Assembly: GCF_026241095.1 (NCBI RefSeq)
Contig: NZ_JAPFGB010000006.1
Coordinates: forward strand, 1-64,000
Source: Saccharopolyspora sp. NFXS83
GTDB taxonomy: Bacteria; Actinomycetota; Actinomycetes; Mycobacteriales; Pseudonocardiaceae
Direction: 5' to 3'
Length of the DNA stretch: 64,000 nucleotides
Shown here: piece by piece, positions 27,008 to 62,533 of the stretch
How the letters are laid out: each line of letters starts with the position of its first letter
How positions within the stretch are numbered: position 1 is the stretch's first letter
Made by a program: the position numbers and the translations under genes
The notes under the pieces: generated by a model
Databases searched by the model: none
Told to the model about the DNA's origin: nothing
What the model saw: the letters and a program-made list of their open reading frames with translations, nothing else

Positions 27008-27100
27008 GGAGGCGTCAGGGCGCCTGGTGGCCCCCGCGGTCTTCAAAACCGACGTGGCCGAGCACCTCGGTCAGGCGGGTTCGATTCCCGTCCGCCTCCG
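27008..27100 (+). tRNA. selC: tRNA-Sec (anticodon UCA)
   Basis: The acceptor strands GGAGGCG and CGCCTCC enclose a long D arm, an anticodon loop CTTCAAA with TCA at 27043-27045, and a very long extra arm. The extra arm pairs TGGCCGAG with CTCGGTCA over eight positions (one G-U, three-base loop). The T arm is CGGG-TTCGATT-CCCG. A UCA anticodon with this large variable arm is diagnostic of tRNA-Sec. The discriminator is G27100, followed by CCG, so the CCA end must be added enzymatically. The eighth acceptor pair (T-C) and one D-stem position (C-C) are mismatched. Confidence 0.92.
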
Positions 27101-27171
27101 CCGCTCCCCCGCCGCACCCCGCGACGACAGGTCCGTCGGGAGTCCGCACGACCGGGGCTTACCATGCCGGT

Positions 27172-30679: not shown

Positions 30680-30694
30680 ATCGCGGTCTCCCCG

Positions 30695-30724
30695 CGTCCT
30701 GCCGGCGGCGAAGCCGACGAGCAC
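30695..30724 (-). repeat. Fragment of the intergenic hairpin repeat
   Basis: The minus strand matches 27 of 30 bases of the 3' end of the repeat copy at 62.3 kb (CGGCTTCGCCGCCGGCAGGACG is shared over its length in two parts: CGGCTTCGCCG and CCGGCAGGACG). The long first stem is absent. It lies in the selB-ku gap. Confidence 0.5.
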
Positions 30725-30811
30725 CCTCCGCCCACCCCTGCGATCAGCTCGGCGGCGGCGCATCGTGGGGTGGTGGCGGGCCGGGTTGCCCGGCGGTGAG
30801 GGAGGCACGTC

Positions 30812-37365: not shown

Positions 37366-38982
37366 ATGGACGGTGTGAACACGAAATCCATGCACCGTCT
37401 GCGCCTCCCGGTGGCGGCGTGGTGCGGAGTCCTGGCGGCTGCGGTCGCGCTGGGCGCCGGTCACCTGCTCGCCGCCCTCCTCGAACCCCGCTCCTCGCCG
37501 TTCCTGGCGGTGGGCAACTCGGCGATCGACCTCACCCCGGAACCGGTGAAGCAGTTCGCCATCCGCACCTTCGGCCAGTCCGACAAGGTCGCCCTGCTGG
37601 GCGGGATGGCGATCGTCATCGCACTGCTGGCCGCCGCGGCCGGCCTGCTCTCGCGCCGCGACGCGCGGCCCGGAGTCGTGCTCATCGGCACGTTCGGGCT
37701 GCTCGGGGTGGCCGCGGTGCTGTCCCGGCCCGACGTGGGCGCACTGGGGGTGCTCGCACCGCTCGTGGCCGCGCTGGCGGGCATCGCGGCGTTCCGGTTG
37801 CTGCACCGCACCGCCCTCGCGGCGAACCCCGCCGCTCCCCCTCCACGCACCCGGCACGACCCGCACGACACCCTGGAAGAGCCCTTCGACCCCGAGCTGC
37901 TCGCCGAAACCGGGAGCCCGGATCGGCGCCGGTTCCTGGCGTCCTCCGTCGCGGTGGCCGCCACCGCCGGGCTCACCGGCGCGGCCGGCTCCCTGCTGAC
38001 CGGCGGCCGGGACGCCGAGGCGTCGCGGCGCACCGTCGCGCAAGCCCTCGGCTCCTCCCCCGCCCGGACCGTGCCCGCCGGAGCCGACTTCGCCTCCGCC
38101 GGCACCCCGTCGTTCCTCACCGCGAACCGCGACTTCTACCGCATCGACACCGCGCTGAGCATCCCGCGCGTCGAGCTCGCCGACTGGCGGCTGCGGGTGC
38201 ACGGCATGGTGGACCGGGAACTCGACCTCGGCTTCGCCGGACTGCGACGATTCCCGCAGGTCACCAGGACGATCACGATGACCTGCGTGTCCAACGACGT
38301 CGGCGGGCCCTACATCTCCACCGCCGAGTTCACCGGCGTCCTCATCCGCGACGTGCTGCTGGCCGCCGGGGTCCGCCCCGGATCCGAGCAGGTGTTCAGC
38401 ACCAGCGTCGACGGGTTCACCGCGGGCACGCCGGTGGAGGCGCTGCTCGACGCCGAACGCGGCGCCCTGCTGGCCTACGGGATGAACGGCGAACCGCTGC
38501 CCGCCGAACACGGCTTCCCCGTCCGCATGGTCACCCCCGGCCTCTACGGCTACGTGTCGGCGACGAAGTGGCTCACCGACCTCGAACTCACCACCTTCGA
38601 CAAGCCCGCCTACTGGATCGAGCGCGGCTGGGGGCGATTCGGGCCGATCAAGGTCCAGTCCCGCATCGACCGCCCCGGCGGCTTCGGCCGCATCCCCGCC
38701 GGGCGCACCACCGTCGCGGGCATCGCCTGGGCACAGCCCATCGGCATCGACCGCGTCGAAGTCCGCGTCGACCGCGGGCCGTGGCAGGAAGCGCAGCTGT
38801 CCACCGAGGTCAACCGGCAGACCTGGCGGATGTGGCGCACCGACGTCGACCTCGCGCCGGGCGGGCACACCATCGAATGCCGCGCCACCGACCACGACGG
38901 CACCACCCAGACACCGGAACGCGCCCCCGTCCTGCCGGACGGCGCAACCGGCTGGCACTCGGTGTTCTGCACCGCCCGCTGA
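37366..38982 (+). CDS. Membrane-anchored molybdopterin oxidoreductase (sulfite-oxidase fold)
   Basis: 538 residues. About four membrane helices occupy the first 160 residues. A linker with an internal twin-Arg-like SPDRRRFLASSVAVAATAGLTGAAG follows, then an extracytoplasmic molybdenum-cofactor domain. The Mo ligand is the Cys in TITMTCVSNDVGG; GFPVRMVTPGLYGYVSATKWL and YWIERGWGRFGPIKVQSRID follow. A C-terminal Mo-co dimerisation domain completes a sulfite-oxidase/YedY-like enzyme. Substrate unknown. ATG 37366 or GTG 37375 could be the start. Confidence 0.85.
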   Translation: MDGVNTKSMHRLRLPVAAWCGVLAAAVALGAGHLLAALLEPRSSPFLAVGNSAIDLTPEPVKQFAIRTFGQSDKVALLGGMAIVIALLAAAAGLLSRRDARPGVVLIGTFGLLGVAAVLSRPDVGALGVLAPLVAALAGIAAFRLLHRTALAANPAAPPPRTRHDPHDTLEEPFDPELLAETGSPDRRRFLASSVAVAATAGLTGAAGSLLTGGRDAEASRRTVAQALGSSPARTVPAGADFASAGTPSFLTANRDFYRIDTALSIPRVELADWRLRVHGMVDRELDLGFAGLRRFPQVTRTITMTCVSNDVGGPYISTAEFTGVLIRDVLLAAGVRPGSEQVFSTSVDGFTAGTPVEALLDAERGALLAYGMNGEPLPAEHGFPVRMVTPGLYGYVSATKWLTDLELTTFDKPAYWIERGWGRFGPIKVQSRIDRPGGFGRIPAGRTTVAGIAWAQPIGIDRVEVRVDRGPWQEAQLSTEVNRQTWRMWRTDVDLAPGGHTIECRATDHDGTTQTPERAPVLPDGATGWHSVFCTAR

Positions 38983-39016
38983 CGGGACCCACGTCCGGGG
39001 CCTGAGCAGGAGGTCG

Positions 39017-39113
39017 GGTGGCGGAACCTCAGCGTTCTTCTCCGCACGCGTCGTCCCCGCGAGAAGAACGCTGAGAACCCGCGGGTGATCGCTGCTCGCG
39101 GCTTCGCCGCTGA
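39017..39113 (+). repeat. Intergenic hairpin repeat, copy A
   Basis: GGTGGCGGAAC leads into CTCAGCGTTCTTCTC (39028-39042), which pairs perfectly over 15 bases with 39061-39075, then AACCCGCGGG and a second hairpin GCGGC-TTC-GCCGC (39098-39110). Shared flanks with the copies at 52.9 and 62.3 kb; the inner stem sequence differs but remains paired. Confidence 0.75.
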
Positions 39114-39167
39114 CAGGGCGGGGAGCGAACGGGGCCTCTCGGGCCCGGGAACTCACCTGGAGGAAGC

Positions 39168-40200
39168 ATGCACGTGCTGGTCACCGGTGGCGCGGGCTTC
39201 ATCGGGTCGCACATCGCCGACCTGCTGGTCGCGCGGGGACATTCGGTGCGGCTGCCCGACGCGCTGCTGCCCGCCGCGCTGGCGCACCCGGCTATCTCGG
39301 CGAGCACGAACTCGTCATCGGCGACGTCCGGGATCCTGAGGTGCTGCGCGCGGCTCTGCCCGATGTGGACGTGGTGTGCCACCAAGCCGCGATGGTCGGG
39401 CTCGAAGCCGGGATGGCCGACATGCCGGACTACGTGGCGCACAACGACCTCGGCACCGCGCATCTGCTCACCGCCATGACCGAAGCGGGCATCGGACGGC
39501 TCGTGCTCGCCAGGTCGATGGTCGTCTACGGCGAAGGCCGCTACCTGTGCCCCGCCCACGGCGTCGTGCGGCCCGGCCCGCGCACCGCGGACGACCTCGA
39601 CGCGGCGTCTTCGAACCGCGCTGCCCCACCTGCGACGGCCTGCTCGAACCGGGCACCGTTCCCGAGGACGCCCCGGTCGATCCCCGCAACACCTACGCCA
39701 CCACCAAGCTCCCCCAGGAACACCTCGCCGCGGTGTGGGCCCGCAACACCGGCGGATCCGCCGTGAGCCTGCGCTGCCACAGCGTGTACGGGCCGCGGAT
39801 GCCGCGCAACACCCCCTACGCGGGAGTGGCCTCGTTGTTCCGCTCCGCGCTGGCCCGCGGGGAGGCGCCGCGGATCTTCGAGGACGGCGGGCAGCGCCGC
39901 GACTTCGTGCACGTGCGCGACATCGCCGCCCCCGACCTCGCCGCGATGCGACGCGAGGAACCCGGATTCGCCGCCTACAACGCGTGCTCCGGGCGACCGC
40001 GCACCATCGGCGACATGGCGACCGCGCTGGCCGAGGCGGCGGACGGCCCGGCGCCGATCACCACCGGGAACTACCGGCTCGGCGACGTCCGCCACATCAT
40101 GGCCGATCCGCGCCGCGCGACCGAGGAGATCGGGTTCCACGCCCAGGCCGGGTTCGCCGAAGGGATGCGGGAGTTCGACACCGCGGCGTTGCGCGCCTGA
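39168..40200 (+). pseudogene. NAD-dependent epimerase/dehydratase, two frameshifts
   Basis: The gene starts MHVLVTGGAGFIGSHIADLL with an intact Rossmann motif. At about 39281 (CTGG.CGC) a base is missing and the frame moves to GYLGEHELVIGDVRDPEVLR..MVVYGEGRYLCPAHG. At 39604-39605 (GCGG.CGTC) another base is missing and it moves to FEPRCPTCDGLLEPG, then YATTKLPQEHLA (YxxxK catalytic motif) and ends YNACSGRPRTIGDM...FDTAALRA. Restoring one G at each site gives a full-length extended SDR of about 344 residues. Both sites look like GGG reduced to GG, so sequencing or assembly error is as likely as true decay. Confidence 0.8.
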
Positions 40201-44603: not shown

Positions 44604-45602
44604 TCAGGAGTTCGGGCGGGTGCGCAGCCGGTACCTGCGTTCGGCGTAGGCCAGGTCGTCGCGCCACAACCGCAGCGCGGCCCACCGCATCAGTGGCCGA
44701 ACCACGCCCGCCGCCGGCAACGCCGCGCGGAATCCCGGGCGCGCCGAGTGCGCCGCGATCGCTTCGATCACCGCCGTCGTCGGGCGCCCCGCCGAGTTCC
44801 GGCCCAGCGGCGTCGCGTGCGTCTCCACGACGCTGCCCACGCCCTCCCCCGCCACGATGCGCATCACGATCGTGCGCGGTTCCGGGACGCTGAACGTGGC
44901 CCGCACCGGCACCCCGATTCCCCGCGCCAACCGGAACGACACCGCCACCTCGAACTCGTCGTCCTCGTCCGGATCCGGGGTGCGCAGCACGGTCAGGTTC
45001 GCGAACGAGTACGGGTGGAACCACGAGCCGTGCCACGGGTCGAGTCGGTTCGCCACGACGTCCTGCGCCTCGCACTCCCCGATCGCCGTGGCGACCGCGT
45101 GAATGCTCCGACCCGGCGCAGGGCGCCGCGGCAGCACCGGGGCGGACAGCGGCGGCTCACCGCCGACGGCGTCGAGCCGGACCCAGACGAGCACTCCGTC
45201 GTCGTGCGCGGGAAACGCGGGCCACCTCGGAGAGCTCTCGCCCAGGCACATCCCGTGCCAGCGGCACACCAGCCGACCCCGGTGCACCCGCGCCTCGCTC
45301 AGCGGCGCGCCCAAGTGCGGGCAGGCCCCCGGTCCGATGTGGAGCGCTCCGCGCCCGTCCCGCCACGCGACCAGCTCCACCCCCGCCACGGTGCGCCCGA
45401 AGGGTCGGTCGCCGGTGATCTCCAGGCTCCCGGCGAGCACGAACCAGTTCCCCGACGGCCGCTCCAGCGCCCGCCGCAGCGCGGCGTCGATGAGCTCCGG
45501 ACGTGCCTGCCGCCAGGTGCCCTCCTGCTCGGCCCACCGCGGCGCCCTGATCCGGCGCAGCGGCAGGCGTTCGCGGAATGCCCGTCGGTCCTGAGCGGTC
45601 AT
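44604..45602 (-). CDS. Rieske [2Fe-2S] protein of the DUF5914 type
   Basis: 332 residues. The Rieske ligands are in GACPHLGAPL (Cys, His) and LVCRWHGMCLG (Cys, His), about residues 93-118. A C-terminal domain of about 190 residues matches the DUF5914 proteins that accompany crtU in actinomycetes. It probably acts as an oxygenase or electron carrier on an aromatic or keto-carotenoid. Convergent with crtU; the start is ATG 45602 with AAGGGGGGC upstream. Confidence 0.72.
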   Translation of the reverse strand: MTAQDRRAFRERLPLRRIRAPRWAEQEGTWRQARPELIDAALRRALERPSGNWFVLAGSLEITGDRPFGRTVAGVELVAWRDGRGALHIGPGACPHLGAPLSEARVHRGRLVCRWHGMCLGESSPRWPAFPAHDDGVLVWVRLDAVGGEPPLSAPVLPRRPAPGRSIHAVATAIGECEAQDVVANRLDPWHGSWFHPYSFANLTVLRTPDPDEDDEFEVAVSFRLARGIGVPVRATFSVPEPRTIVMRIVAGEGVGSVVETHATPLGRNSAGRPTTAVIEAIAAHSARPGFRAALPAAGVVRPLMRWAALRLWRDDLAYAERRYRLRTRPNS

Positions 45603-45789
45603 GGCGCCCCCCTTCGCTCAGCGGTGCAGAGTAGCCGCGAACGACCGCCGCGAGCCCGCGTCCGATCCGTCAGCGCACCGAGATTCCACCGATCGCGCAG
45701 CCGAAACCCGCCGCATCACGACGAACGGGTGTGCCAGCGCCCGCAACCGGGTAACGCGGAACCGGAACGACCCCGTTGGAGGAGGCCTC

Positions 45790-46125
45790 ATGCCTGCAGG
45801 CGCGAACCGCAAGCAGGAGCGGCAGTACGAGCACATCAAGTCCAACGCCGAGCAGCACGGCAGCAGCGAACGCCGGGCGAAGGAGATCGCGGCCCGGACC
45901 GTGAACAAGGAGCGGGCCCAGCAGGGCCAGGCGAAGCAGCGCAGCAGGACGTCGGTCCACGACATCTCACCGGAACGCCGCGGCGGGCTGCGCTCCGGCA
46001 ACCGCACCGGGCCCCTCGGGCGGACGAAGGCCCAGCTGTACCAGGACGCGCGGCGGGCCGGGATCGACGGCCGCTCGAAGATGAGCAAGGCCGAACTGGA
46101 ACGAGCGCTGTCGTCGCGGAGCTGA
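45790..46125 (+). CDS. Small basic Rho_N-like protein
   Basis: 111 residues. Starts at ATG 45790, four bases after GGAGGAGG. The first half is a charged helix (RKQERQYEHIKSNAEQHGSSERRAKEIAARTVNKERA); the second ends LGRTKAQLYQDARRAGIDGRSKMSKAELERAL, a Rho_N/SAP-like motif also seen at the end of Ku in this window. Related proteins are usually labelled 'plasmid stabilization protein', a name with little evidence. Probably a nucleic-acid binder. Confidence 0.75.
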   Translation: MPAGANRKQERQYEHIKSNAEQHGSSERRAKEIAARTVNKERAQQGQAKQRSRTSVHDISPERRGGLRSGNRTGPLGRTKAQLYQDARRAGIDGRSKMSKAELERALSSRS

Positions 46126-46141: not shown

Positions 46142-46207
46142 GAGTGGCGGGACCTCGGCCGGTTCCTCGACTGATCCCCGCGTCTCCCCGAGGAATCGAC
46201 TGGGAAC
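46142..46207 (+). repeat. Degenerate relative of the hairpin repeat (copy E)
   Basis: GAGTGGCGGGACCTC resembles the repeat's lead-in, followed by TTCCTCG and CGAGGAA arms 19 bases apart and GGGAACTCG. The outer part of the stem no longer pairs. Similar position, between a gene end and a gap. Confidence 0.3.
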
Positions 46208-46262
46208 TCGTTGAGCCGCCGGTGCCGCGCGTGGTCGCGCCGGAACGGAGGACCCGGCCGGA

Positions 46263-51205: not shown

Positions 51206-52723
51206 TCAGCTCACCGCGACCGCCGGGGAGGTGCCGAGCACCGCGCCCTCGCGGTCCAGCGCCTGCACGCCGACGAACGCGGCGCCACCGGGGACGTCCA
51301 CCTTGGTCTCGAACCCGGCGCGCTCGGCGTCCTGCACCGGGGTCAGGTTCGCTTCGTCCGGCCCGGTCAGCACCCGCCAGCCCGTGACCTCGGTCGCCCC
51401 GTTCCAGCTGGCGTACACGCTCGTCACGCCATCGCCCGCCTGCCCGGCCACGGCGGGCGCGTCGAGCGGCTTGCCGACCCACGCCGACCGGAACGAGCGG
51501 TACGAGGTGATGGAGTCGACGAACTTGCCGTGGAAGAGCGCCGTCCCGTCCTCGTCGAACTCGGTGAAGTACGGTTCGCCGCCCCACCCGACGAACACGT
51601 GGCCGTTGGCGAGGATCTGCGTGTTGCCCTGGTTCGGCGCGAGCAGCCCTTCGGGGCTCTCGTTGCTGCGCACCACTTCGGCGGTGCGCGCCGTCTCGTC
51701 CACGGCGAGGGTGAGCGCGCGGGACTTCCCGCGGCCGGGTGCGGCGGCGGCGTTGTCGAACAGGCTGATGGCGCCGTCGGCCTGCCGCCGGCAGTCGTGC
51801 TGCCAGGCGAACGGCGCGTCCGGCCCCATCTCGAAGTCGCTCTTCTTGCCGTTGAGCCGCCAGTTGACCCGGCCGGTGGCGCGGTCGATCCGGTACACGG
51901 CGTGCGTGCAGCGGGCCGAGACGAGCAGCGCGTCACCGTCTTCGCAGACCGCGTTGAGGTGGATGTAGTCGAACCACTCCTCCGGGTCCTTCGGGACGGG
52001 GTAGAAGGACTCGTCCAGCGTCACGTGCTCCAGGCTGCGCCACTCGAACACGAGGTCGCCGGTGGCGATGTCGATCTCCTGGATGACGCCTTCGAGGACC
52101 TTCGAGTCCGGCGCCCCGCCGATGGGGGTGGTGTCGGCGCGCACCTCGGAGTAGACGATCACCAGCGCGGTGCCGCGCGGGGTGATCACGAACTCGTGCA
52201 TGTCGCCCTGCAGGCCGTTGGCCGGGCTGACCGTGGCGATCCGCTCGTAGTTCTCGTCGAGCACCACGAACCGGCCCTCACCGAAGCCCGGCGGGATGTG
52301 GATCGCGCCCTCCCACCAGGTCAGCACCGGTTTCCCCTGGTACTGCTGGACTTTCATGTCGGCGATGACGCCTTCGGCCGGCGGGGAGAACCACACCGGC
52401 TGACCGAGGTCGTCCATGATCAGCGCACCGGGCTGGAAGTCGGCCCGCGGGGCGGGTGCCGCCGCGTTGAGCTTGTTGGCCCCGGCGGGGGTGAGCAGCA
52501 CGTAGCCGGGCTCGACGCCCGCGGCGGGGGTGGTGATCTCCACCTGCGGCGGGTTCAGGTCGGGGCGGCTCACGAAGGTGTGGCCCGCGCGGGTTCCGGC
52601 ACGCGGCGCGGCGGCGGCGACCGCGGCGGTTCCGGTGCTCACGAGCGCGGGCACGGCCGCGGCAGCGGCCATCATGCGCAGCACGCTGCGCCGCCCCACG
52701 GCGGGGTTGGGGGTGGTCGTCAT
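51206..52723 (-). CDS. Arylsulfotransferase (ASST) family protein
   Basis: 505 residues. A Tat signal (GRRSVLRMMAAAAAVPALVSTG, cleavage near AAAAP) exports it. The mature part is a six-bladed propeller-like chain with VWFSPPAEGVIADMKVQQYQGKPVLTWWEG, GDMHEFVITPRGTALVIVYSE, DYIHLNAV and WQHDCRRQADGAISLFDN; the His residues in these motifs are typical of the ASST fold. ASST enzymes transfer sulfate between phenols without PAPS. It ends the sulfur module with its own terminator; the next gene upstream is a PAPS-type sulfotransferase. Confidence 0.82.
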   Translation of the reverse strand: MTTTPNPAVGRRSVLRMMAAAAAVPALVSTGTAAVAAAAPRAGTRAGHTFVSRPDLNPPQVEITTPAAGVEPGYVLLTPAGANKLNAAAPAPRADFQPGALIMDDLGQPVWFSPPAEGVIADMKVQQYQGKPVLTWWEGAIHIPPGFGEGRFVVLDENYERIATVSPANGLQGDMHEFVITPRGTALVIVYSEVRADTTPIGGAPDSKVLEGVIQEIDIATGDLVFEWRSLEHVTLDESFYPVPKDPEEWFDYIHLNAVCEDGDALLVSARCTHAVYRIDRATGRVNWRLNGKKSDFEMGPDAPFAWQHDCRRQADGAISLFDNAAAAPGRGKSRALTLAVDETARTAEVVRSNESPEGLLAPNQGNTQILANGHVFVGWGGEPYFTEFDEDGTALFHGKFVDSITSYRSFRSAWVGKPLDAPAVAGQAGDGVTSVYASWNGATEVTGWRVLTGPDEANLTPVQDAERAGFETKVDVPGGAAFVGVQALDREGAVLGTSPAVAVS

Positions 52724-52806: not shown

Positions 52807-52945
52807 CTCAGCGGCGAAGCCGCTGAGCGGTGACCAGCTGAGCACGACGACCACCGGCGGGTCCTCAGCGGCCCTCTCGTGCGGAGGACGATTCCTCGTG
52901 GCGGAGGAAGCGATCCCGCGGCGGGAGGACCGCTGAGGTTCCGCT
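52807..52945 (-). repeat. Intergenic hairpin repeat, copy B
   Basis: Minus strand: GCGGAAC, then CTCAGCGGTCCTCCC (52937-52923) pairing with 52878-52864 (one G-U, one mismatch), then GACCCGCCGG and a second hairpin CTCAGCGGC-TTC-GCCGCTGAG (52827-52807). The inner loop has its own TTCCTC/GAGGAA stem. It lies between two sulfur genes, in their orientation. Confidence 0.7.
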
Positions 52946-52983
52946 GTCCGGCCCCTGCGCGAACCGGTTCGAGCGAAGCCTTC

Positions 52984-53646
52984 TCAGGCGGTCGTGAACG
53001 GAGAGGGGAATTTGCCCTCGGATTGCACCTTTTCCGCGAGGTCGCGGATCGAGGCGCTGTCGTTGATGTGCGGGAAGTCCTCCGCGGGCACGTCGACGCC
53101 GAAGAAGTCGCACAGCGGCTCCCAGCCCTGGCCGACCTGGTATTCCAGCAGCCGGTCGGCGGGCACGGCGGCGCGGACCTCGGCGTTGTGCCGTTCGAAG
53201 ACCTCGATGGCGTGGGCGCGGTCCTCGAACCGGCCGCCGAAGGCGCCGTTCCAGATCATCCGCTCGATGGTGGGGCGCAGCTTCGTGGTGAACGCGTCGT
53301 CGGCGTCGCCGGGCGGGTCCTGCACGAACTGGTAGATCGTGTTGTAGGTGCTGTCGTACCAGCGCTCCGGGTCGCGCGTGGTCAGCAGGACCTTGGCGTC
53401 GGGGTAGGCCGCCATCAGCTCCCGCCAGAACGTGCAGCCCGGCCAGTCCACAGTGGACTCGTAGCCGCCGAGAACCTGGTCCCAGTCGACCGGGCCGTCC
53501 AGGGCGCGGGCCCAGTCCTGCATCCGCTCGGGTTCCGCGATGACCTCGAACATGTGGTAGCACGGCCCGAAGCCGAGGTGCTCCAGCGCCGATTTGATCG
53601 ACGCCGTCCCGGTGCGGCCGAACCCGGCCCCGATGATCTTCACCAT
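52984..53646 (-). CDS. PAPS-dependent sulfotransferase family protein
   Basis: 220 residues. The 5'-phosphosulfate loop is GAGFGRTGTASIKSALEHLG at the N-terminus; the 3'-phosphate binding region is VLLTTRDPERWYDST. The WPGCTFWRELMAAYPDAKVLLTTRD pattern is typical of short bacterial sulfotransferases related to polysaccharide or small-molecule sulfation. Lies 62 bases after cysN on the same strand, directly beside the PAPS-making genes. Confidence 0.83.
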   Translation of the reverse strand: MVKIIGAGFGRTGTASIKSALEHLGFGPCYHMFEVIAEPERMQDWARALDGPVDWDQVLGGYESTVDWPGCTFWRELMAAYPDAKVLLTTRDPERWYDSTYNTIYQFVQDPPGDADDAFTTKLRPTIERMIWNGAFGGRFEDRAHAIEVFERHNAEVRAAVPADRLLEYQVGQGWEPLCDFFGVDVPAEDFPHINDSASIRDLAEKVQSEGKFPSPFTTA

Positions 53647-53708
53647 GGTGTTGCTCCTTGTTGTGCTCGCCCGAGCGGTCGGGCCTTCCCGCTGTCCCAG
53701 TGCGGACG

Positions 53709-54995
53709 TCAGCGCGCTTCGATGATCATCACCGCGCCGACGGTGGCATGCGTGGACTCGTCGATCAGCAACCCCCCACCGGTGAGCCGGTTGCGCTCGT
53801 AGGGGTCGCAGAACACCGGCTGCGCCAGCCGCAGCCCCACCTCGCCGATGTCGTTGAGCCCGAGCTCCCGCGCCGGATCGCGCCGCAGCGTGGTGACGTC
53901 GACCTGGTGGCGCACCTCGGTGACCAGGGCCTTGACGGTTCGCGTGGTGTGCTTGAGCAGCAGCCGCGCACCCGGCCGCAGCGCGGACTTCGCGCTCATC
54001 CAGCACACCCGCACCGACAGCTCCGTCGCCGCGGCGGGCGCGGCGTCCGGCGCGCACAGCAGATCACCGCGGCCCACGTCGATCTCGTCGGCCAGCCGCA
54101 CCGACACCGACTGCGGCGCCCGCGCCTCCGCGAGCGCGCCGTCCGCGGTGTCCAGCGAAGTCACCCTGGTGCGCAAGCCGGAGGGCAGGTGCAGCACCTC
54201 GGCGCCCTCGCGCACCCGGCCACCGCTGATCTGGCCCGCGTAGCCCCGGTAGTCCTGGCCCTGCGCGCGGATCACGTACTGCACCGGCAGCCGGAAGTCG
54301 CCCGCCGACCGGTCCTCGTCGATGTGCACCTGCTCCAGGTGCTCCAGCAGCGCCGGGCCGTCGTACCACGGCATCTCCGCGGACCGGTGCACCACGTTGT
54401 CGCCGCGCAGCGCCGAGATCGGGATGGCCGCGACGTCGCGCAGCTCCAGCTCGTCGGTGAAGCGGGCGAACTCCGCGGTGATCTCCTCGAACGCGCCCTG
54501 GCCGTAGCCGACGAGGTCCATCTTGTTCACCGCCAGCACCAGCCGCGGCACCCGCAGCAGCCCGGCCAGCACCGCGTGGCGGCGGCTCTGCTCGGTGAGC
54601 CCGTTGCGGGCGTCGACGAGCACGATCGCCAGGTCCGCGGTGGACGCCCCGGTGACCATGTTCCGGGTGTACTGGGCGTGGCCCGGGGTGTCGGCGATGA
54701 TGAACGCCCGGTGCGCGGTCTCGAAGTAGCGGTGCGCCACGTCGATGGTGATGCCCTGCTCGCGTTCCGCGCGCAGCCCATCGGTGACCATCGCCAGGTC
54801 GAGCACCTCGTCGCCGCGTTCCTTGCCCGCCAGCTCCAGCATCTCCAGCTGGTCGGCCAGCAGCGAGCGGGAGTCGTGCAGCAGCCTGCCGATCAAGGTG
54901 CTCTTGCCGTCGTCGACGGCACCGGCGGTGGCGAACCGCAGCAGGCTGTCGGCGGGCGCGAAGACCTGCTGCTCGGCGTCGGTGGACAGGCTCAT
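53709..54995 (-). CDS. cysN: Sulfate adenylyltransferase GTPase subunit
   Basis: 428 residues. EF-Tu-like GTPase that drives APS formation by CysD. G1 GAVDDGKST, effector region EREQGITIDVAHRYF, G3 DTPGHAQYTRNM, G4 NKMDLV, then two beta-barrel domains. Unlike mycobacterial CysNC it has no APS-kinase domain; that activity is in the separate cysC here. Its ATG overlaps the cysD stop by one base. Confidence 0.94.
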   Translation of the reverse strand: MSLSTDAEQQVFAPADSLLRFATAGAVDDGKSTLIGRLLHDSRSLLADQLEMLELAGKERGDEVLDLAMVTDGLRAEREQGITIDVAHRYFETAHRAFIIADTPGHAQYTRNMVTGASTADLAIVLVDARNGLTEQSRRHAVLAGLLRVPRLVLAVNKMDLVGYGQGAFEEITAEFARFTDELELRDVAAIPISALRGDNVVHRSAEMPWYDGPALLEHLEQVHIDEDRSAGDFRLPVQYVIRAQGQDYRGYAGQISGGRVREGAEVLHLPSGLRTRVTSLDTADGALAEARAPQSVSVRLADEIDVGRGDLLCAPDAAPAAATELSVRVCWMSAKSALRPGARLLLKHTTRTVKALVTEVRHQVDVTTLRRDPARELGLNDIGEVGLRLAQPVFCDPYERNRLTGGGLLIDESTHATVGAVMIIEAR

Positions 54996-62276: not shown

Positions 62277-62421
62277 GGGTGGCGGAACCTCAGTCGTCTT
62301 CTCGCTGCGGGGTCGATTTCCCCAGTGGCTCCATCGCTGTCCTCGCGAGAAGCCGACTGAGAACCCGCGGCGGGTCCTTCTGCTCTGGTGGCCGCTGCTC
62401 AGCGGCTTCGCCGCCGGCAGG
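62277..62421 (+). repeat. Intergenic hairpin repeat, copy C
   Basis: GGGTGGCGGAAC, then CTCAGTCGTCTTCTCGC (62289-62305) pairing with 62345-62361 over 17 bases (one mismatch), then AACCCGCGG and a second hairpin GCGGC-TTC-GCCGC (62402-62414). It fills most of the otherwise empty gap between the GH78 gene and the MFS gene. Confidence 0.75.
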
Positions 62422-62533
62422 ACGAAGATCGAACGCGCTGGCCGTGACGGGTGCCGCGCGGGGTGCCGCCGCCTATTCTCGGTGGGTCGGCGGCCCGCCG
62501 AGAAGGTTCCAGTCCGCTCCCGGAGAGGACCGC

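Follow-up and report, generated by a model that had tools for sequence, protein, structure and literature searches.

The hairpin repeat described here is probably a family of non-autonomous mobile elements: a MITE of approximately 230–300 bp that has the ends of an IS5-family insertion sequence (IS) and carries a long imperfect hairpin whose arms are overwritten between copies. Two observations carry this reading. In S. rosea the family is a mobile repeat with IS5-type ends, and at old insertions common to sister species the hairpin arms have lost orthology as matched pairs.

The repeat was examined in a window of 64,000 nt (the whole stretch of DNA analysed, positions 1 to 64,000 of contig NZ_JAPFGB010000006.1 of Saccharopolyspora sp. 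NFXS83). A preliminary description of this DNA had placed copies A, B and C near 39.0, 52.9 and 62.3 kb, with B on the minus strand, and the sequence confirms all three. The left flank of copy A (38983–39016, plus strand) starts directly 3′ of the TGA of a gene with an oxidoreductase molybdopterin-binding domain (37366–38982). It is followed by the hairpin core (39017–39086, plus strand, 65.1 bits), which consists of the lead-in, the 5′ arm, a shortened inner part, the 3′ arm and CTGAGAACCCGCGGG. Here GGTGGCGGAACCTCAG occupies positions 39017–39032, the arms are CGTTCTTCTC and GAGAAGAACG, the exit is CTGAGAACCCGCGG, and CTCAG together with the arm forms 15 perfect pairs. A second small hairpin (GCGGCTTCGCCGC) with a CTGACAGG tail, at 39096–39117 on the plus strand, makes up a right part of type 1. 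The core of copy B (52853–52948, minus strand, 69.3 bits) lies approximately 35 nt 3′ of the TGA (52986–52984) of a sulfotransferase-domain gene (52984–54057, minus strand) and upstream of an arylsulfotransferase-like gene (51206–52723, minus strand); its second hairpin, TCAGCGGCTTCGCCGCTGA, is at 52807–52825 on the minus strand. Copy C has its core at 62278–62372 (plus strand, 95.4 bits) and its second hairpin, with a GGCAGG tail, at 62396–62422 (plus strand), and no sense ORF was called ending within 120 nt upstream of it. The stems contain no mismatch in A, two in B and one in C, as had been claimed, and the second hairpin (CGGCTTCGCCG) is present in all three copies. The lead-in and exit said to be shared are exact only in A and C; copy B has GGACAGCGGAACCTCAG and CTGAGGACCCGCCGG at these places.

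A covariance model built from 42 copies, C among them but not A or B, was used to search the window and recovered C (3.6e-18), B (1.1e-12) and A (9.2e-12). It also detected a fourth, decayed copy at 46143–46215 (plus strand, 38.5 bits, E 3.7e-6), behind the TGA (46123–46125) of an ORF without a Pfam match (45601–46125). The three copies are therefore real, but this one had been overlooked. A relic of a type-1 right part without the main hairpin was recognised by eye at 30687–30735 on the minus strand. The statement that no named RNA family fits the repeat holds: none reached its Rfam gathering score on the copies in the window, and four matches to one complete copy elsewhere in the genome (L010), obtained by allowing E values up to 1, all fell far below gathering. 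A literature search of titles and abstract starts, with subscription papers outside its reach, found nothing on this repeat. The sole Rfam family above gathering score in the window was tRNA-Sec (27008–27102, plus strand, 72 bits; ARAGORN anticodon tca), which points to a selenocysteine system in this actinobacterium. As a separate observation, the gene after copy A (39168–40200, plus strand) opens with a sequence resembling an NAD-dependent epimerase, but this starting frame soon departs from the family sequence and then meets a stop, while the frame 39376–40200 matches Epimerase and GDP_Man_Dehyd; either the gene is broken or there is a sequencing error.

The repeat is dispersed and intergenic, as first described. 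In the whole genome (6.9 Mb) the 16-mer GGTGGCGGAACCTCAG is found 81 times exactly and 165 times when up to one mismatch is allowed; the reversed pattern, used as a control in the same genome, has no match. Patterns of this type matched 320 times in the sister genome G370 and 226 times in G371. The preliminary description had proposed running a covariance model across related genomes, and further copies abound: the hairpin model matched 85 of 390 Pseudonocardiaceae genomes, in 15 of 46 genera, the scan scoring nine candidates per genome so that its per-genome copy numbers are lower bounds. Among the matches listed (80 of at least 110 stretches), the named genomes were many Saccharopolyspora species, two Amycolatopsis, one Halopolyspora and one Saccharomonospora. 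No plasmid matched the repeat.

On the reader's strand the element consists, in order, of a left end of approximately 36 nt, GGTGGCGGAACCTCAG, a variable arm of approximately 10 nt, the conserved CTGCGGGATC, an inner stem with a variable loop, GCTGTCCTCGC, the opposite arm, CTGAGAACCCGC and a right part. On each side an AAC separates GCGG/CCGC from CTCAG/CTGAG; it hardly varies and does not pair on this strand. In our own genus the right part was of type 1 (the CGGCTTCGCCG hairpin) in 34 of 73 copies and of type 2 (GACGTGGGCTATGCGC, often with tandem small hairpins) in 28, the other 11 being unassigned. Short forms without the main hairpin also occur (for example L069 and L083). In several type-2 copies (L008, L010, L032, L061 and others) runs of small, ACGGCCTTCGGCCGCAAGGC-like hairpins, variable in number, lie between the element and the next gene. 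Another copy (L143, 1814–1930) has a different sequence in place of the usual GCGAGGACAGC stretch (antisense strand) and extra stem bases. Draft contigs stop inside the hairpin at L009, L023, L026, L028 and L037, where assembly seems to break at the repeats.

Full-length copies were found in S. rosea, where the left end matched 322 times with up to three mismatches (control, 1) and both terminal repeats were present in 39 of the 67 copies examined (70 loci). Identical triplets flanked 24 of these 39 full copies and all were TNA (TCA 13, TGA 9, TTA 1, TAA 1); in the other 15 the flanking triplets were not identical. TNA was present on the left of 53 of the 67 copies. At one S. rosea locus (L245, reverse strand, ~1552–2514) an IS of approximately 0.96 kb lies inside a copy of the repeat, flanked by TCA. 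It ends in GTGCCTGTCTTTGATCTTGGG and its inverse, the outer bases of which match the ends of the repeat. The protein encoded by its open transposase frame matched DUF4096 (1.3e-27) and DDE_Tnp_1 (5e-23), the Pfam models on which the IS5 assignment rests; we take its finer grouping to be IS427/IS1031-like, with a TNA target. Nested copies, in which the repeat had inserted into another repeat at the TCA of CCTCAG, were seen at L156 and L166. Over 226 copies, the left terminal repeat was matched in 18, the right in 29 and both in 15, compared with 0–1 left and 0–5 right matches for three shuffled motif pairs. An alternative pair, GGTGGCGGAACCTC facing GAGGTTCCGCCACC, was rejected as the usual ends of the element: 201 sources had only seven such pairs, and the left end is 36 nt beyond this position.

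Among the congeners, G370 has an inverted copy in the slot of copy A, and in G368 and G369 this slot is empty; in G371 and G372 there was no element in the 420 nt compared, and the neighbouring gene is another one. These empty sites, together with the terminal repeats and TNA duplications of S. rosea, bear out the palindromic mobile repeat that had been listed as one option. The IS5 origin of the copies in the window's genus is carried over from relatives, because most of them lack recognisable terminal repeats; no right terminal repeat was seen in the type-2 copies inspected, some of them only in part. No close intact transposase was found in six genomes of this genus, where the best match was 63% over 51 residues (G369) and the other weak matches were four frames of 282 aa at 27% (G371) and one in our own genome with E 5e-5. 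The copies of this genus therefore look like relics that are still exchanging hairpins. Copies in S. hirsuta (L092, L103, L110, L132, L136) have, by eye, the same core between other ends (GCGATTTCAATG/GCGATTTCAATGAGG ... CATTGAAATCGC); the L245 IS does not explain these ends, and it is as if a second type of transposon carried the same core.

The repeat commonly lies close behind stop codons. An upstream sense ORF ended within 120 nt of 135 of the 226 copies, and in 102 of the 135 the stop was 25–44 nt before GGTGGCGG; in copies such as L184 and L084 the preserved left end, at −36, lies right at the stop codon. Gene context was taken from a crude ORF caller, and copies placed inside ORFs (8 of 104 in our own genome, 4 of 122 in others) are probably caller errors; no neighbour was called on one side of 10 copies in our own genome and 15 elsewhere. 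Between tandem genes the element was sense to the upstream gene in 24 cases and antisense in 13 in our own genome (p 0.1), and 51 versus 13 in other species (p 2e-6). The full-length copies of S. rosea showed no sense bias: a stop lay within 6 nt of the left end in 10 cases and of the right end in 10 (+E+ 5, -E- 8). The bias may therefore arise by retention, and it is compatible with selective retention behind genes. An end lies within 6 nt of a stop in 17 of the 39 full S. rosea copies, while in the window stops account for only ~13% of the permissive TNA sites (38/291), and in the S. rosea loci for 12% (142/1221), as far as crude ORF calls allow. Stops are thus hit above their share of TNA sites, which makes an extended target or selection likely; a TNA target may be insufficient by itself to account for the position. 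TGA would itself be a TNA target that survives the duplication, so that insertion at a stop would be harmless to the gene.

For a comparison of orthologous sites, 26 of the 42 eligible sites in our own genome were drawn at random and sought in G370, where all 26 gene ends were found. At 22 of them an element lay within 330 nt, 20 in the same orientation (L045 doubtfully) and two in the opposite one; at the remaining four there was none within 330 nt. Sixteen pairs had both arms readable in both genomes and were compared at 10 stem positions each. Among the 160 positions 97 were the same and 63 had changed: 48 on both arms with pairing present in each genome, 12 on a single arm, and three on both arms with a mismatch. 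In three of the 16 pairs (L029, L063, L086) the stem was kept or changed on one arm only. Orthologous pairs resembled each other more closely than mismatched pairs did in the left flank (0.765 versus 0.654) and the right part (0.794 versus 0.659), differences reached in 0 of 5000 shuffles each, and slightly so in the inner part (0.887 versus 0.854, p 0.002). For the arms no orthology signal was detected (0.675 versus 0.638, p = 0.13), although with 16 pairs a weak signal could escape. L081 illustrates this at a single locus: flanks and right part are nearly identical to those in G370 and the inner part has three single differences, but the stem is TGAGCC/GGCTCA in one genome and GTGGTC/GACCAC in the other, a change in four of six pairs. 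Four sites (of six prepared) compared in four congeners gave a similar picture, some being empty and some differing in right-part type. For the 26 sites in G370, a quick classification of right-part type was set aside, since it conflicted with the earlier assignment of L042 and with the alignment of L086. Thus the arms have lost orthology as matched pairs, at insertions old enough to be common to sister species.

The common stem types also differ between species (hand count). The stem TTGGTCTC occurred 11 times among 50 listed of the 226 G371 matches and in none of 66 in our own genome (hand count); in G370 it was found once among 100 listed of 320 matches and once in the complete list of 91 T-initial ones. 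Conversely, CTTCCTTC occurred five times among 100 listed of the 320 in G370, but not among 50 listed of the 226 in G371 or the 66 of our own genome. A replication-strand bias, suggested by a run of plus-strand matches among those listed for G370, was discarded, as the complete list of 91 has both strands throughout (53 and 38).

These results change how the covariation of the stem is to be read. The folding set comprised 184 unique sequences of 185 cores with a readable 3′ arm, of which 42, thinned by identity, entered alignment A1. Over 27 pairs, 91.8% of the cells in these 42 sequences could pair, and 171 cells had changed on both sides compared with 63.3 in shuffles, a value reached in none of 500. 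Covariation no greater than chance had been named beforehand as a test, and the fold is indeed conserved while the stem sequence changes. With partners slid by 1–3 columns there were at most 46 double-change cells; this control preserves relatedness, so descent alone does not explain the pairing, although a structure taken from the very sequences under test tends to score above its slid versions. The proposal that covariation by itself shows the fold to be kept is not supported in that form. At orthologous sites most replacements involve both arms together, and the flanks of these elements remain orthologous; joint inheritance of matched arm pairs therefore accounts for much of the covariation seen between copies. 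A pressure or process behind so many different but paired stems must nevertheless have existed.

Folding also differs between strands. Relative to the upstream gene, RNAalifold gave −33.3 for the antisense strand and −25.0 for the sense strand, and the minus strand was lower in 145 of 184 sequences. Mismatches read on the plus strand were A.C in 103 and G.T in 30 cases over 117 arm combinations, which favours the minus strand, but the own-genome combinations gave 25 versus 20 and a single position contributed 43 of the 103; this is weak evidence for a minus-strand fold. A higher model score on the minus strand was rejected as evidence, since the model had been built on that strand.

Copies thus appear to exchange their hairpins, probably through gene conversion, although fast compensatory evolution would give similar tables. 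An old insertion would stay at its site while other copies in the same genome, no donor among them having been identified, would overwrite its hairpin, a conversion that cleavage or stalling at the hairpin, once extruded, might initiate. Such overwriting would keep the arms paired and spread stem types within a species. Compensatory evolution in place, with the arms re-matched by selection or by template switching within the palindrome and without exchange between copies, would account for the 48 matched changes among 63, and palindrome repair by template switching occurs in bacteria. We nevertheless consider it unlikely: at L081 four of six stem pairs have changed between nearly identical flanks, nearly invariant unpaired stretches such as AAC/AAC have not been repaired to pairs, and stem types recur within species. 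Repeated independent insertion into the same stop codons, with no overwriting of old copies, would explain why the copy A slot is occupied in opposite orientations in two close genomes, as at 2 of the 26 tested sites, and why the type of right part differs at some sites (L061, L055, by eye). The common orientation at 20 of 26 sites and the orthology signal in the flanks on both sides make this distinctly improbable.

A structured RNA or 3′-end element, transcribed at mRNA ends as a terminating or protecting hairpin whose fold is kept by selection, agrees with the covariation above chance, with the sense orientation behind upstream genes and with the conservation of unpaired stretches inside the hairpin. 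We regard it as rather doubtful as an account of the family, because terminal repeats, TNA duplications and empty sites speak of mobility, the covariation is partly explained by joint inheritance of the arms, the better fold is antisense to the upstream gene, and the sense bias is absent from full-length S. rosea copies. An intrinsic terminator is further opposed by the exit sequence, CTGAGAACCCGCGG, with no T-run seen by eye after the hairpin. A REPIN-type element moved by a Y1 (RAYT-like) transposase would have the same anatomy, two inverted conserved 16-mers with a paired variable spacer, and Y1_Tnp was found in 25 of 85 element-bearing genomes compared with 38 of the 305 genomes in which no element matched (hand count). 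The other 60 of the 85 had no Y1_Tnp, however, nor did the element carriers G000 (our own genome), G370, G371 and G372, in a search whose controls were positive in 5 of 14 genomes and in which our own genome is 97.5% complete; in S. rosea there are IS5-type ends and TNA duplications instead. For the family this origin is very improbable, and for the present genome it is largely refuted. G368 and G369 are among the family members, in which Y1_Tnp is somewhat commoner with the repeat than without it.

The preferred reading, a MITE with exchanging hairpin arms, can be extended in two ways. More tentatively, the hairpin could be an exchangeable cassette, its stems overwritten as matched pairs far faster than the flanks diverge, driven by breakage or replication stalling at the hairpin, so that the set of gene-end hairpins turns over while their positions stay. 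As a candidate further step, for which the evidence leaves room, sense-oriented copies retained behind genes may now be working 3′-end elements.

By its ends and duplications the repeat is a MITE, and its anatomy is nearest to that of REPINs. It resembles IS5-family (IS427/IS1031-like) MITEs in sharing its outer ends with an IS, in its TNA duplications, in the lack of a transposase in the typical copy and in its many copies; unlike them, it has a conserved covarying hairpin, present in 15 of 46 genera of the family and apparently swapped at fixed sites. ERIC, Correia (CREE/NEMIS), BOX and RUP are likewise described as small intergenic palindromic mobile repeats, with other ends and other hosts. 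The idea of gene conversion between such repeats is not new: it was reportedly raised in 1988 by Higgins et al. for the evolution of REP sequences. REPINs have two invariant inverted 16-mers ~71–110 bp apart with compensatory changes between them (PMC3116915). The inverted 16-mers, the variable compensating spacer and the hundreds of copies are common to both (PMC3116915), but here there is no Y1 transposase, a relative has DDE-type ends with target duplications, and the element is longer and has more modules. In REP-RAYT systems a GTAG or CGTC tag reportedly stands at the foot of the hairpin (PMC3733652). The REP sequences of E. coli are also hairpins close behind stop codons (PMC12306157); they differ from the present repeat in sequence, organisms and mobility, and the orthologous sites used here give a direct test.

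It is common to take covariation among the copies of a repeat as proof that an RNA is functional, yet copies that overwrite each other can give the same pattern, and fold-preserving changes can come both from mutual overwriting and from selection for the fold. The orthologous sites show that matched arms can exchange as a unit, which calls for caution in repeat-based RNA discovery. With hundreds of marked sites and close complete genomes, the family also offers a tractable system in which gene conversion between dispersed short palindromes in bacteria can be measured.
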